Assembly (NCBI GenBank): GCA_019561615.1
Contig: JAHEQA010000037.1
Coordinates: 1-40,543, forward strand
Length of the DNA stretch: 40,543 bases
DNA from: Methanothermococcus sp. SCGC AD-155-E23
Lineage (GTDB): Archaea; AGJL01; Methanococci; Methanococcales; Methanococcaceae
Reading direction: 5' to 3'
This document shows positions 3,939-9,258 of this stretch, one piece after another; within the stretch, counting starts at the first letter, position 1; every line of letters begins with the position of its first letter. Position numbers and translations under genes: made by a program. The notes below the pieces were generated by a model. It did no database searches, had not been told where the DNA came from, and was given only the letters and a program-made list of their open reading frames with translations.

Positions 3939-6104
3939 TTAAATCACTATACTCCTTAGTAGTTTATCTGGATTCTCCTGGTATTTCATTATAAGTTCTC
4001 CTACCCTCTTGATATCCCTTATATTGTTCTTGTATGCATACTTCAATACCTCTATTCTATTTTTCCTATCCTCCAATAACTCCTCCCTAGTTATACCTGC
4101 AATATTACAGACCTCCTCCTCCCACATACAGATACCTGTTTTCTTTATGGCATCCTCCATACCGTCGTATGTAAAGAGTGTAGTTTTGGATATCTCTCCA
4201 CCAGAGCCTGTAATCTCTATAACTTCCAGTATTCTTCTAATAGTCTTTCTATTCCTCTTTATCCTCTGCTGGTTTATAATAAAGTCCAGGGAGGTGAGCA
4301 TAATCTTAGGTACATTCATAGGTGGATTTATCAACCTAGTTATAGCCTCACTTGCACTGTTTGCGTGGAGAGTTCCAGAACAGTTGGAGACTACGATACC
4401 TCCGTTACTTCCCCCTATATAGGTATGGTTGTCCACAACTGTTAGATCGTAGATATAACCCTGATACCTTACCTCCTCAATAGAGACTACCCTATCCCAG
4501 GAGATACCTGGGGAGGAGTATACACTCTCTACCATTACATCCCCATCTGTACCGTAGCTACTAATACTTTTACCTCTGTATCCACTGGGAATAGCTATGT
4601 AATCTCCAACCTCTAGGGTGTTGGCATTAACCTCGAAGATAATCCCCCTTAGCAGGTACAGTGGATGGTCGTGGGTAAGGGTTATCTCCCTGCCACTCTC
4701 AGTTCTTATCTTTAGAAGTTTTCCAGAGTACCTCTTTCTCCATACATGGGATATTAACTTGTCCTCAATTTTTAGGGATCTCTTGTTAAAGCTGTTGATG
4801 TATATACCCTCTCCACTTATATCTATCCATTCAAATCCGTTATCCTCCCTTACCACCTTATATCCCTTCTGGAAGAAACTATCTACAAGGTCCCCTATCT
4901 TTACAACCCTATTATCGGAGAGGTGTATCAACTCTTCACCAATTAAGGCACCGTCGTGACCTGTGTTCATAGCTACCAGGAGGGAACGGGCCTCCTCTCC
5001 CCTTACCTCCCCTACAAATATCCTATCAGGTCTCATCCTCAGGGCGTTCTTAATAAGGTCGTCCATGGTGATCTCGTAGTCTGGGACTCCAGGTCTTGGT
5101 GGTCTAGTTACCATCCTTATTACATGGTCATGGGGTATCTGGAGTTCTGGAGTATCCTCGATGGTAATTATTCTATCGGTATACATGGAGAACATGGATA
5201 TTACATTTAGGGTGGTAGTCTTACCAGAACCAGTACCCCCTACAATCAAGGTGTTGGCAGGTTTAGATCCAAAGTATCCCTCAACAGCCTGCCAGAGGAA
5301 GGCTGCAAATTCAAAGTTAAAGGTACCAAATCTTATAAGATCTATCACAGTTAGAGGATCCTTGGAGAACTTACGGATGGTCAGTGTATTTCCATCAGGT
5401 GTAACCTCCTTTAAGGTGGCATTTACCCTACTCCCATCTGGTAAAAAGGCATCTAGCATAGGGGTTCTGGCATCTATGGTCCTTCCTGCAAGTAGTGCTA
5501 TACTCTCTATAATTCTTGTCAACTCCTCCTCGTCAAAGGTGATATTAGTTCTACACATCTGGTATTTCCTGTGGAAGACATAGGCAGGCCTGTACTCCCC
5601 GTTAACCATTACCTCCTCTAATCTATCGTCACTAAGGGGTATCTCAAGTAGACCTAACTTACCAAGGACTAAGTAGAAGTACTTTGCCAGACTTTGTATC
5701 TCAGGTTTTTTTAGGTTTAAATTGTTCTCCTCTACGTAGTCCTGTAAGAATTTGTATATCTCTCCAACCTTCTCAAATCCCTCTTCAGATAGGATGGACC
5801 TTATATCCTGGAGGGTATCCTCAGGTAACCTGGAGAGTATCTCCATTATCTCATCTACTTCAGGTACAATATACAGTGTCCTTCCTCCCTTTTTCTCGAT
5901 AACTATCTCAAATTCTACCTCCCCCACCTGTACACTGTAGGTGTCCAGGACATTTGGGGATAGAGAGGTACCTACTTTACTAAAAGTAGTTGTAAAGCCA
6001 GTTGGAGTAGTCTCCCCCTCTTTTTTCTCCTCCTTTAAAGTACTGTCCTTTTTAATAGAAACTCCAGCCTTACCCTTCTTTTTAATTCTATCTAATAGTC
6101 CCAT
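3939..6104 (-). CDS. klbA: KlbA: TadA/VirB11-type assembly ATPase interrupted by an intein
   Basis: 721-residue precursor; removal of a 189-residue intein leaves a 532-residue ATPase. Walker A is GGTGSGKTTT (about 289-298), the Asp box is ITIEDTPELQ (about 313-322), and Walker B lies in RPDRIFVGEVRGEEA (358-372). The His box is split by the intein, with GHDG (382-385) before it and CSGTLHANSA (575-584) after it, so the ATPase should be inactive until splicing. The N-terminal part is charged and lacks a signal peptide. Such ATPases power type IV pilus-like assembly, and two TadC-like membrane partners follow in the same operon. The ATG has a GGTG ribosome binding site 5 nt upstream. The M. jannaschii homologue also carries a class 2 intein (known from the intein literature), at what looks like the same site. 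Confidence 0.9.
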   Translation of the reverse strand: MGLLDRIKKKGKAGVSIKKDSTLKEEKKEGETTPTGFTTTFSKVGTSLSPNVLDTYSVQVGEVEFEIVIEKKGGRTLYIVPEVDEIMEILSRLPEDTLQDIRSILSEEGFEKVGEIYKFLQDYVEENNLNLKKPEIQSLAKYFYLVLGKLGLLEIPLSDDRLEEVMVNGEYRPAYVFHRKYQMCRTNITFDEEELTRIIESIALLAGRTIDARTPMLDAFLPDGSRVNATLKEVTPDGNTLTIRKFSKDPLTVIDLIRFGTFNFEFAAFLWQAVEGYFGSKPANTLIVGGTGSGKTTTLNVISMFSMYTDRIITIEDTPELQIPHDHVIRMVTRPPRPGVPDYEITMDDLIKNALRMRPDRIFVGEVRGEEARSLLVAMNTGHDGALIGEELIHLSDNRVVKIGDLVDSFFQKGYKVVREDNGFEWIDISGEGIYINSFNKRSLKIEDKLISHVWRKRYSGKLLKIRTESGREITLTHDHPLYLLRGIIFEVNANTLEVGDYIAIPSGYRGKSISSYGTDGDVMVESVYSSPGISWDRVVSIEEVRYQGYIYDLTVVDNHTYIGGSNGGIVVSNCSGTLHANSASEAITRLINPPMNVPKIMLTSLDFIINQQRIKRNRKTIRRILEVIEITGSGGEISKTTLFTYDGMEDAIKKTGICMWEEEVCNIAGITREELLEDRKNRIEVLKYAYKNNIRDIKRVGELIMKYQENPDKLLRSIVI
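4383..4949 (-). mobile_element. KlbA mini-intein (class 2, Ala at position 1, no endonuclease)
   Basis: Codons 386-574 of klbA. The element starts with Ala (codon at 4947-4949) instead of the usual Cys or Ser and ends in VVSN, followed by Cys575 as the +1 residue. Block B is visible as TLTHDHPLYL (intein residues about 90-99, with the TxxH signature), block F as YIYDLTVVDNHTYIGG (165-180), and block G as IVVSN/C. At 189 residues with no LAGLIDADG motif it is a mini-intein. Class 2 inteins splice without an N-terminal nucleophile because Cys+1 attacks the N-terminal junction directly, as shown for Mja KlbA. The stretch of about 35 residues between the two splicing halves (PSGYRGKS to SSPGIS) makes it about 20 residues longer than the 168-residue Mja KlbA intein as remembered. 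Confidence 0.93.
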
Positions 6105-6172: not shown

Positions 6173-7150
6173 TTATAGGGTAACGTCGATATCTAGATGC
6201 TCTGTCAATTCCTTGTACCTGTTCCTTATAGTTACCTCTGTAACTCCTGCAACATCTGCAACCTCTCTCTGGGTTCTCCTTGTCCCATGGAGTACACTGG
6301 CGATGTATATTGCAGCTGCAGCTACACCTGTTGGTCCCCTACCACTTGTCAACCCCTTCTCACTGGCCTTCTGAAGGATGGCAATAGCCTTGGACTCCAC
6401 CTCCCCAGGTAGGTTAAGTTCTGAGACAAATCTTGGGACGTAGTCTATTGGACTTGTTGGAGCCAACTTTATATTCAACTCCCTTGTTAGGAACCTGTAG
6501 GTCCTTCCTATCTCCTTTCTATCTACCCTGGAAACCTCTGCAATCTCATCTAAGGTCCTTGGAACCTTACATATTCTACAGGCGGCGTAAAGTGCGGCGG
6601 CAGCTACCCCTTCTATACTTCTACCTCTAATAAGCCCCTTCTCCACAGCACCCCTGTAGAGTATTGCGGCGTTCTCCCTAACATTCCTTGGTAGTCCCAA
6701 CTTAGAGGCTATCCTGTCTAACTCAGAGAGGGCATAGGCAAGGTTTCTCTCTGAGGCATCAGATACCCTAATTCTTCTCTGCCACTTTCTCAACCTGTAG
6801 AGTTGAGCCTTCCTCTCTGCAGAGATCTCCTTCCCATAGCTGTCCTTGTTCCTCCAGTCGATAACGGTGGATAACCCCTTGTCATGTATGGTGTAGGTTA
6901 TTGGAGCCCCTACCCTACTTCTCTTTACCCTCTGTTCATGGTCGAAGGCCCTCCACTCTGGTCCTGTATCAAATAGATTTTCCTGTAGAACACATCCACA
7001 GTCTGCACATACAATCTCTGCCCTCTCGTAATCCTTAACTATATTCTTACTGTTACAGATAGGGCAGACTAGCTCCTCCTCCTTCTCTATAATAACATTT
7101 TTTGAGTTCTTAGCATTTTTCTCCTCTACTTCTAATGTTTTTGCCTTCAT
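6173..7150 (-). CDS. tfb: Transcription initiation factor B (TFB)
   Basis: 325 residues. An N-terminal zinc ribbon (Cys 29, 32, 48, 51: CPIC and CADC) binds RNA polymerase. The B-reader/linker region follows ([19 protein letters not shown]), then two cyclin-like repeats (about 120-215 and 220-315) that bind TBP and the BRE; the second ends with a helix-turn-helix ([19 protein letters not shown]). The length equals a normal intein-free archaeal TFB, whereas the M. jannaschii protein carries an intein. The gene lies 30 bp downstream of gar1 on the same strand and is followed by a T-rich terminator, suggesting a gar1-tfb transcript. The ATG at 7150 has a GGTG site 7 nt upstream. Confidence 0.95.
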
Positions 7151-7180: not shown

Positions 7181-7456
7181 TTAACGTCGACCCCTCCTGT
7201 TGGAGTATCTCTTTCTCCTCTTCTCCTCCGAGATAAAGGCCTCCCCCCGTCTCAGTGCTATCCTCTTCCCAGTTTTATCTGTAGGTATTATGGAGATGTA
7301 GGGTTTATTAACTGGGCCAAAAACCTCGTACACCTTCCCAAGTACCCTCCTCCTAGATCTATCTGCAAAAACAGTAGATCTTAACTTAGGTTGATAGTCC
7401 GCCCTCCCTATAACCCTCCCGTTGGGAAGCTCATGTAGTATCTCTATCCTCCTCAC
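7181..7456 (-). CDS. gar1: Gar1, H/ACA RNP subunit
   Basis: Small basic protein of 91 residues from the chosen start. The conserved core (HELPNGRVIGRADYQPKL, then RRVLGKVYEVFGPVNKPYIS) is the Gar1 six-stranded barrel that binds Cbf5 and promotes product release in H/ACA-guided pseudouridylation of rRNA. The tail is very basic (EEKRRKRYSNRRGRR). The start is placed at GTG 7456: GGAGG (about 7467-7463) lies 6 nt upstream, while the TTG at 7474 has no ribosome binding site. It precedes tfb on the same strand and is transcribed from a promoter that mirrors that of the divergent precorrin-2 dehydrogenase gene. Confidence 0.88.
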   Translation of the reverse strand: MRRIEILHELPNGRVIGRADYQPKLRSTVFADRSRRRVLGKVYEVFGPVNKPYISIIPTDKTGKRIALRRGEAFISEEKRRKRYSNRRGRR

Positions 7457-7498
7457 GGTACTCCTCCACTTCAATATAACTAATAGATTTAGAAATAT

Positions 7499-7524
7499 GG
7501 ATATAACGTTGATACGATATATCC
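7499..7524. promoter_or_regulatory. Imperfect 26-bp palindrome at the predicted gar1-tfb transcription start
   Basis: GGATATA (7499-7505) and TATATCC (7518-7524) are perfect inverted arms of 7 bp; after one mismatch on each side a further CGT/ACG match extends the symmetry. The element lies about 25-30 nt downstream of the minus-strand TATA box, where the gar1-tfb transcript should start. It could be a repressor operator or, if transcribed, a leader hairpin. Function is inferred only from position and symmetry. Confidence 0.4.
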
Positions 7525-7546
7525 ACCTATCCCTTTTGCAGTAATC

Positions 7547-7576
7547 CTATATAAACTTTTCGAAAAATATATATAG
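7547..7576. promoter_or_regulatory. Mirror-image divergent promoter (shared BRE palindrome, two TATA boxes)
   Basis: The plus strand reads CGAAAAATATATATAG (7561-7576); the minus strand reads CGAAAAGTTTATATAG (7562 down to 7547). The two BRE/TATA elements match at 14 of 16 positions and share the palindrome TTTTCGAAAA (7557-7566). Both fit the methanococcal BRE (CGAAA-type) plus TATA consensus. The plus promoter should start about 20 nt before the precorrin-2 dehydrogenase gene, the minus promoter about 65-70 nt before gar1. TFB and TBP could bind in only one orientation at a time, so the promoters probably compete. Confidence 0.8.
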
Positions 7577-7619
7577 AAGTATCGACCTGCACTAAATTTA
7601 AATTCCAGAGAAGGAGAGG

Positions 7620-8246
7620 ATGATACCTGTATTTATTAAGTTAAAGGGTTTTAAGGTGTGCATCTTTGGATTTGGAGAGGTGGGGAGAAGAAGGTTAAAG
7701 AAGATACTACCTGGAGAACCGGAGAAGGTAACTGTCTATACCAAAGAGGAGGTAGAGGGGGAAACTAGGAGGCACTACGAGAATCTCTGTAACATAGAGT
7801 TTATAACCTGTGACCTGGAGGAGCTAAGGGATGAGGATATCGAGGAGATAGTAAAGGAGCATGATATTGTAATAGCTGCCATAGACGAGAGGAACAACAG
7901 GAGGATTGTAGAGATAGCCAAAAAATTTAAAAAGTTTATAAACTCCTCCACCTTTGAGGAGGATGTTAACTTTGTAATCCCAGCCTACTGCTATAAGGAG
8001 GGGATATACTTCCTGGTGTACACCCAGGGTAGGAGCCCTCTGATGGCGAGACATATTAGGGAGTTAGTGGAGAAATATATCGAGAATAATAGACAGGAGA
8101 TAGACCTCCAGAGTAATTTAAGAACATTTTTAAAAGAATGTGTCCCATCCCAGAGAGAGAGAAAGGAAATTTTAGAGGAAGTTTTTAAAAATGAGGAGTT
8201 TAAAAGGGAACTGTTGAATCTAATAGAGAGGTATAAGAATAAGTAA
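7620..8246 (+). CDS. Precorrin-2 dehydrogenase (siroheme synthase N-terminal type)
   Basis: 208 residues, the size of the Met8/CysG-N family. It begins with MIPVFIKLKGFKVCIFGFGEVGRRR-type sequence: a Rossmann NAD-binding motif (GFGEVG, about 16-21) right at the N terminus. NSSTFEEDVNFVIPA and the TQGRSPLMARHIRELVE segment are typical of this family. It oxidizes precorrin-2 to sirohydrochlorin with NAD+, the branch point leading to coenzyme F430, siroheme and cobalamin in methanogens. The ATG is preceded by AAGGAGAGG. Marker protein 2 follows 37 bp downstream on the same strand, so co-transcription is likely. Some family members also act as ferrochelatases; that cannot be judged here. Confidence 0.9.
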   Translation: MIPVFIKLKGFKVCIFGFGEVGRRRLKKILPGEPEKVTVYTKEEVEGETRRHYENLCNIEFITCDLEELRDEDIEEIVKEHDIVIAAIDERNNRRIVEIAKKFKKFINSSTFEEDVNFVIPAYCYKEGIYFLVYTQGRSPLMARHIRELVEKYIENNRQEIDLQSNLRTFLKECVPSQRERKEILEEVFKNEEFKRELLNLIERYKNK

Positions 8247-8283: not shown

Positions 8284-9258
8284 ATGAAGTTGAAGGAGAT
8301 AATTGAGGCCATAAGAAACTTTGAAGGTGTAACTAGAAAGAGAGGTATAAAGGAGATAGTATCTAATTTTAAATTTAAGGATGAGGACTACAACTTTGAA
8401 ATTATAGCCTCTTTTGGAGAGGATGCTGCGGTAGTAGCTATCAACGGTGAGGATGCTATTTTACTGGCTGCAGATGGTATATGGGAGAAGGTGTTGGAGG
8501 TAGATCCCTGGTGGGCAGGGTACTGCTCTGTACTTGTCAATGCCAACGATATAGCAGCCATGGGTGGTAGACCTATAGGTATGACAAGTGTAATAGGGGT
8601 AAGAAACTGGGATGTATGTAGGGAGATCCTTAAGGGTATAAGATACGGTATAGATAAGTTTGGTATCCCTATGCTGGGGGGTCACACCCATCCAGATGCA
8701 AGGTGCAACGTCCTAGATGTCTCCATTACAGGTATTGTAAAGAAGGACAGTATTCTAAGAAGCGACTCTGCCAAGGTTGGGGATAAGATAGTATTCGCCT
8801 ACGATCTAGATGGTAAGGTCCATGAAAAGTTCAACCTCAACTGGGATACCACCACCATGAAACCAAAGAAACTTGTAAGGGATCAGTTAAGGACCCTTGA
8901 AGTTATAGGAAGGGAGAAACTGGCTAACTCCTGTAAGGATATAAGTAATCCAGGTGCCCTAGGTACCCTAGGTATGCTCCTTGAAGTCTCCAGGAAGGGA
9001 GGCTATGTAGATATAAGGAAGATACCAAAACCTGAGGGTATACCTATTGTTCAATGGTTGAAGATGTATCCTGGATGTGGGTTTGTATTTACAACACCTG
9101 AGGAGAAGGTGAAGCCCCTTAAGGAGATACTGGAGGATGTAAATGTAACTGCGGAGGTCTGTGGAGAGGTAGTTAGGGAGAGGAAACTTGTAATAGGGGA
9201 TGGAAAGGAGAAAGGTGTTCTCTTTGACTTTGAGAAGGAGTACATATGTGGGTGTTAA
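8284..9258 (+). CDS. Methanogenesis marker protein 2 (AIR synthase-like)
   Basis: 324 residues, the family length. It has the PurM/ThiL-like fold: [23 protein letters not shown] (about 45-66, cited in part) carries the ATP/Mg-binding acidic residues. [18 protein letters not shown] (about 88-105) and [20 protein letters not shown] (about 132-151) are typical of the methanogen family TIGR03267. The family is nearly confined to methanogens and its reaction is unknown; relatives phosphorylate or activate small substrates with ATP. It lies downstream of precorrin-2 dehydrogenase, which hints at tetrapyrrole/F430-related work, but only from context. Its TAA stop overlaps the stop of the opposing hydrogenase gene (TTAA at 9255-9258). 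Confidence 0.88.

Follow-up and report, generated by a model that had tools for sequence, protein, structure and literature searches.

TFB is a general transcription factor required to start archaeal transcription. It stimulates its own production, and such a loop should run away or collapse unless it is damped. The locus described here bears on what might damp it, and more generally on how archaea set the amounts of their general transcription factors. In the window, by which we mean the whole 40,543-nucleotide stretch of Methanothermococcus sp. SCGC AD-155-E23 that was analysed, the operon encoding TFB lies behind a palindrome composed of two archaeal core promoters that point away from each other. 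Is the reason for this mirroring to be sought in the gene on the far side, in a regulator that reads the palindrome, or in the supply of TFB itself?

Two opposite core promoters at one dyad

The gar1-tfb unit is encoded on the minus strand. Its first gene, gar1 (7181..7456), specifies an H/ACA RNP protein (NCBIfam match at 1e-19, below the curated cut-off) and probably starts not at TTG 7474 but at GTG 7456, just behind a GGAGGAG. The second gene, tfb (6173..7150; NF001658, 1e-166), encodes transcription initiation factor B. On the plus strand lies a lineage-specific divergent neighbour, a precorrin-2 dehydrogenase-like gene of the CysG N-terminal type (p2d, 7620..8246; PF13241, 9e-16; TIGR01470 just below cut-off), with a methanogenesis marker 2 gene downstream of it (8284..9258; TIGR03267, 2e-149). 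The names that the first-pass annotation had given to these four genes are thus borne out by profile matches, those for Gar1 and TIGR01470 falling below their cut-offs. Downstream of tfb, a type II/IV secretion ATPase gene (3939-6104, minus strand) contains an intein splicing domain (PF14890, 5e-22). In many relatives (G030:C56, G034:C16, G006:C1, G004:C1 and others), the tfb match begins only at residue 84 and lies within open frames of about 670-860 aa, which looks like an intein at the same point; the tfb of the window is without this apparent intein.

Positions 7547-7576 read CTATATAAACTTTTCGAAAAATATATATAG, and within them, at 7548..7575, lies the mirror-image double core promoter, assigned to neither strand: an 8-base TATA box and a 6-base BRE on each side of a dyad between 7561 and 7562, the two BREs innermost. 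BRE is used here in the strict sense of the six bases preceding the 8-base TATA box. The minus arm, directed toward gar1 and tfb, consists of the BRE GAAAAG (7556..7561) and the TATA box TTTATATA (7548..7555), which equals the methanogen consensus quoted in PMC5512572. The plus arm, directed toward p2d, consists of GAAAAA (7562..7567) and TATATATA (7568..7575). Both arms agree with the archaeal core promoter, TWTATATA after a purine-rich BRE in which positions -3 and -6 are the most specific. The extended strong BRE MRCCGAAAAG, selected with Methanocaldococcus jannaschii TBP and TFB (Li et al. 2008, as quoted in PMC5512572), ends in the six BRE bases of the gar1 arm. This arm is nearly identical to the whole motif, with one of the two consensus C residues before the G replaced by T, as the mirror demands.

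Judged on the window alone, two complete and opposite BRE-TATA units therefore lie at one palindrome between two divergent genes, one of them facing gar1-tfb, just as the first-pass annotation had it. It had also described the BRE as shared. The two 16-mers on which this was based are indeed present and overlap by the central CG; strictly, however, the BREs abut at 7561/7562 and are not shared. The corollary that only one complex can bind at a time is likely, given that the M. jannaschii extended BRE of 9-10 nt would cross the dyad. The exact motif CGAAANNTWTATA has two matches in the 40.5 kb window, which are the two arms; no further site was found there at 0 or 1 mismatch, nor a second full mirror with up to 2 mismatches in the 1.04 Mb of the organism's own genome that were searched.

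The TATA centres of the two arms are 20-21 bp, or about two helical turns, apart. By the rule that transcription starts 26-27 bp from the TATA centre (PMC5512572), gar1-tfb is predicted to start at 7525 on the minus strand with a leader of ~69 nt, and the opposite arm at 7598 on the plus strand with a leader of ~22 nt to p2d. The predicted starts are ~73 bp apart and diverge. At its predicted 5' end (7498-7525, minus strand), the leader of gar1-tfb can form a hairpin, TGGATATA...TATATCCA, with a z-score of -1.9. The two nearest relatives preserve or extend the arms of this hairpin, and in L006 they are disrupted.

Conservation and specificity of the mirror

A pattern search detected the mirror in 31 of 36 genomes of the order Methanococcales, at 36 sites, while a reversed control pattern gave 3 sites across the same genomes. 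All 31 genomes have the mirror just upstream of gar1-tfb, which accounts for 34 of the sites, the other 2 lying elsewhere. Inspection of gar1 promoters in the order found every one of them mirrored (30/30), and a genome missed by the pattern search (G022) keeps the mirror with one letter changed. The flanks cannot be aligned between the two families of the order. In a thinned set of 16 loci, the two arms show about equal conservation, with most of their positions exceeding 1.4 bits per base; further out, most positions fall below 0.7 bits per base. A phylum-wide search starting from the window added no genomes to the same 36. One relative (locus L048, G018:C1:1059091-1076719) carries four identical tandem copies, with a period of 5405 bp, of the segment comprising gar1, tfb and the mirror, either a true tfb amplification or an assembly artefact.

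Conservation of the mirror in relatives, which had been proposed as a check, was confirmed, but what the mirror follows is gar1-tfb and not the gene pair. Within the order, a head-to-head arrangement of gar1 and p2d was found in just 4 genomes. The far-side gene varies between p2d, a RuBisCO-like gene, a radical SAM gene, a type 2 IPP isomerase gene and a cyclase gene (the cyclase identified by profile search, the RuBisCO-like, radical SAM and IPP isomerase genes named from reading their sequences), and the mirror stays constant. The pairing with precorrin-2 dehydrogenase is incidental. The suggested link of general transcription and ribosome modification to tetrapyrrole supply is not supported, as the mirror also persists beside other or co-directional neighbours.

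Beyond the order, the same 28-29 bp geometry is found, with altered letters, at gar1-tfb in Methanobacteriales and Halobacteriota-type genomes, the group labels of part of the genomes being inferred. In Methanobrevibacter the mirror reads TATAAATGTATC/GATACATTTATA (the slash marks the dyad), so that the letters differ and the geometry is constant; other forms are TATATAAAGGTATC/GATACCTTTATATA (L111 and L147) and TATATAAATGTATC/GATACATTTATATA (L136 and L146). A search of 504 kb found the mirror at gar1-tfb in 41 tfb loci, mostly of Methanobacteriales, and nowhere else. Across 12 whole Methanobrevibacter-type genomes the pattern occurs only at tfb, the exceptions being two stray sites with one mismatch. 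A degenerate form, TTTAAA...TTGC/GAAA..TTTATATA, occurs in genomes from the phylum of the Archaeoglobi-type record L142, and clear mirrors exist in further lineages, some of them within GC-rich DNA (L282, L283). The best opposite promoter keeps a strict offset, at 0 or -1 in most cases. In about half of the thinned Methanobacteriales loci, in Methanosphaera, largely in Thermococcales, in one group labelled f3 and in the single haloarchaeal locus covered, the opposite arm is weak or missing, with coverage thin for Thermococcales, Thermoplasmata-like, haloarchaeal and Thermoproteota genomes; the mirror device is thus not universal. The design is kept at the tfb gene across very distant archaea, including places where the far side has no gene to drive. 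A regulatory architecture that is unique to one operon per genome and still recognisable between archaeal orders despite unalignable flanks is rare.

Is the mirror specific to this operon? For the comparison, the best forward promoter before gar1 was fixed and an opposite-strand BRE plus TATA was scored at the mirrored position, as was done for other promoters drawn from sampled stretches of relatives. The opposite-arm score reached the threshold at 100% of tfb loci versus 12% of other promoters in the order (Mann-Whitney p 6e-11), at 39% versus 0% in Methanobacteriales (p 1e-4) and at 60% versus 6% in Halobacteriota (p 3e-7). Restricted to perfect forward motifs, mirrors were found at 15/15 tfb promoters of the order and at 0/22 others (p 1e-10); the corresponding figures for the other two groups are 11/17 versus 0/4, the strong-promoter control set of Methanobacteriales being small (n=4), and 4/6 versus 0/8. 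In 400 kb of one relative, tfb has the sole mirrored promoter among 15 strict ones, several of which precede tRNA-like sequence. The architecture is therefore specific to the tfb operon. Chance or AT-richness as its source is ruled out by the uniqueness, the fixed offset and the matched control promoters, and a general feature of strong promoters by the 0/22 other perfect-motif promoters. A feature shared by the genes of general transcription factors is ruled out for tbp, whose promoters in the order show no mirror enrichment (12%, equal to background).

What the opposite arm may do

The most straightforward explanation would be an ordinary bidirectional promoter, whose opposite arm transcribes whichever divergent gene adjoins it. 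In the window, p2d begins ~22 nt past the predicted plus-arm start, behind a good ribosome site, and all loci examined within the order have a divergent gene as their closest upstream neighbour, 38-453 bp away. Alone, this would fit a plain bidirectional promoter. However, the mirror stays while its neighbour changes identity, and outside the order 33 of 42 mirrored loci (16/18, 11/14 and 6/10) have a co-directional gene nearest upstream, with orientations taken from our own ORF calls and not from annotation. In Methanobrevibacter, for example, a co-directional RraA-like gene ends ~113 bp before gar1, and at several Halobacteriota loci the co-directional upstream gene ends ~10-20 bp from the dyad, so that the opposite arm there can only make antisense RNA. 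Since the mirror is mostly kept beside a co-directional upstream gene, its purpose is not to transcribe a divergent one, and we consider the bidirectional promoter an unlikely explanation. Another idea is that a non-coding RNA made from the opposite arm, upstream or antisense, or else a polymerase moving away from it, insulates gar1-tfb from upstream read-through or keeps histones off it, without any autoregulation. Co-directional upstream genes often end ~10-60 bp from the dyad, and the opposite transcript would be antisense to these; antisense transcription from symmetric promoters has been documented in Pyrococcus (PMC6640164). Yet an Rfam search beside the mirror at 16 loci returned no match and no conserved RNA family, and insulation leaves unexplained why gar1-tfb, and not other operons in a like setting, is mirrored; this reading, too, seems improbable to us. 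In three Methanococcus-type loci (L044, L045 and L047), the opposite arm and the IPP isomerase gene that it faces are separated by ~380 bp of non-coding DNA containing a T-rich tract, which leaves room for a small RNA or a long leader; no Rfam family matched there.

What reads the element is a separate matter. Perfect or near-perfect palindromes, such as those of L111 and L136, are typical of dimer operators, and the mirror might accordingly be bound by a dimeric regulator in competition with TFB for the BRE. In that case the half-sites should change together across species. They do not: left and right arms, compared as whole arms in four groups, show no covariation (permutation p 0.12-0.98) and match each other no better than shuffled pairs, as expected if each arm is read as a promoter. 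A dimer operator was rejected on this absence of covariation. Half-sites also differ between orders while the TATA/BRE geometry stays constant, and what is kept is the BRE and TATA consensus, not the mutual match; altogether, a dimeric regulator strikes us as quite improbable. That each arm keeps the BRE/TATA consensus independently argues for TBP-TFB as the probable reader over a dimeric repressor.

The unit begins with gar1 wherever the mirror is seen, so its target could be gar1 and not tfb; for instance, the supply of H/ACA RNP might be matched to stable RNA transcription through a BRE and TATA of tRNA-class strength. The arms do resemble strong tRNA-type promoters, and the three genomes in which tfb is not preceded by gar1 (L205-L207) have no BRE-BRE mirror. 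On the other hand, there is no evident benefit to Gar1 from mirroring as distinct from mere strength, and among the lineages covered, some of them thinly, no genome was found in which gar1 is separated from tfb and itself bears a mirror. We regard this possibility as very improbable. In L205-L207 the TATA box lies inside a palindrome of its own, GATCTTTATATATAAAGATC, a symmetry unlike that of the BRE-BRE mirror.

The persistence of the mirror at tfb, even without a far-side gene, suggests that TFB limits its own production through it. From the promoter layout we infer TBP-TFB binding, mutual exclusion, firing in both directions and a regulatory purpose, which could fit together as follows. The gar1-tfb unit would be driven by two complete BRE-TATA units that face away from each other and keep a constant spacing of 28-29 bp. 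TBP-TFB could assemble in either orientation, probably one at a time, as the recognition surfaces would meet at the dyad; one orientation would transcribe gar1-tfb and the other would send polymerase away. TFB driving its own gene constitutes a positive feedback loop. With two competing high-affinity sites, the promoter would saturate at lower TFB, and forward occupancy would be capped near K1/(K1+K2), about one half. A single site would be occupied as Kx/(1+Kx), whereas two exclusive equal sites would give a productive share of Kx/(1+2Kx), saturating sooner and at one half; for equal arms, the log-gain of the loop would drop from 1/(1+Kx) to 1/(1+2Kx). Were both arms fillable at once, which is doubtful because an extended BRE of 9-10 bases would presumably cross the dyad, even though the TATA centres lie about two helical turns apart, an x-squared term would appear, output would fall at high TFB and the promoter would shut, amounting to true negative feedback. 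In either mode, tfb output would be less responsive to TFB than other promoters are, and the mirror would make the supply of TFB self-limiting without calling for a separate repressor. The earlier proposal that the TFB level chooses which side is used does not follow: both arms bind the same TBP-TFB ligand, so the equilibrium ratio K1/K2 is constant whatever that level.

We give an even chance to the proposal that the gar1-tfb mirror is a self-limiting double core promoter, whose exclusive TBP-TFB sites cap and flatten the self-stimulating loop of TFB. The broader generalisation is more tentative, and we hold it at somewhat below even: that this is an ancient promoter design in many euryarchaea, with mirrored core promoters letting the general machinery regulate TFB supply without a dedicated regulator, by orientation competition or double occupancy. 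The question is directly testable with the purified TBP, TFB and polymerase available for Methanocaldococcus and by genetics in Methanococcus maripaludis, both of which belong to the lineage with the strongest mirror.

Comparison with known promoter systems

The haloarchaeal gas vesicle genes gvpA and gvpD have closely spaced divergent promoters with overlapping activator sites for two known genes. As at gar1-tfb, two opposite promoters are near enough to interfere. In contrast, the core elements themselves abut in the mirror, and its far side is often without a gene to drive. As for strength, each arm nearly carries the strong tRNA-type core promoter of M. jannaschii (MRCCGAAAAG plus TWTATATA, quoted in PMC5512572). 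Unlike that promoter, the element at gar1-tfb consists of two mirror-image copies, and none of the 22 further strong promoters in 400 kb from a relative is mirrored.

Among the open papers searched, none was found that describes the mirror architecture or deals with gar1-tfb promoters, most subscription papers lying outside the search. The gar1-tfb locus goes unmentioned in the text of the M. maripaludis dRNA-seq paper. The closest layout is that of the bidirectional BRE-TATA-BRE promoters described in Pyrococcus furiosus in 2019, in which one shared TATA box serves starts 49-50 bp apart (PMC6640164). These occur at many genes and were taken as noise; one was tested in vitro (PMC6640164). The symmetric layout is common to both systems; in Pyrococcus the core elements alone give opposite transcripts, which at gar1-tfb are predicted from sequence. 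The arrangement, however, is inverted: instead of one TATA box flanked by two BREs, two outer TATA boxes flank BREs that abut centrally, with predicted starts ~73 bp apart. Moreover, unlike the Pyrococcus type, the mirror described here is tied to one operon and conserved between orders.
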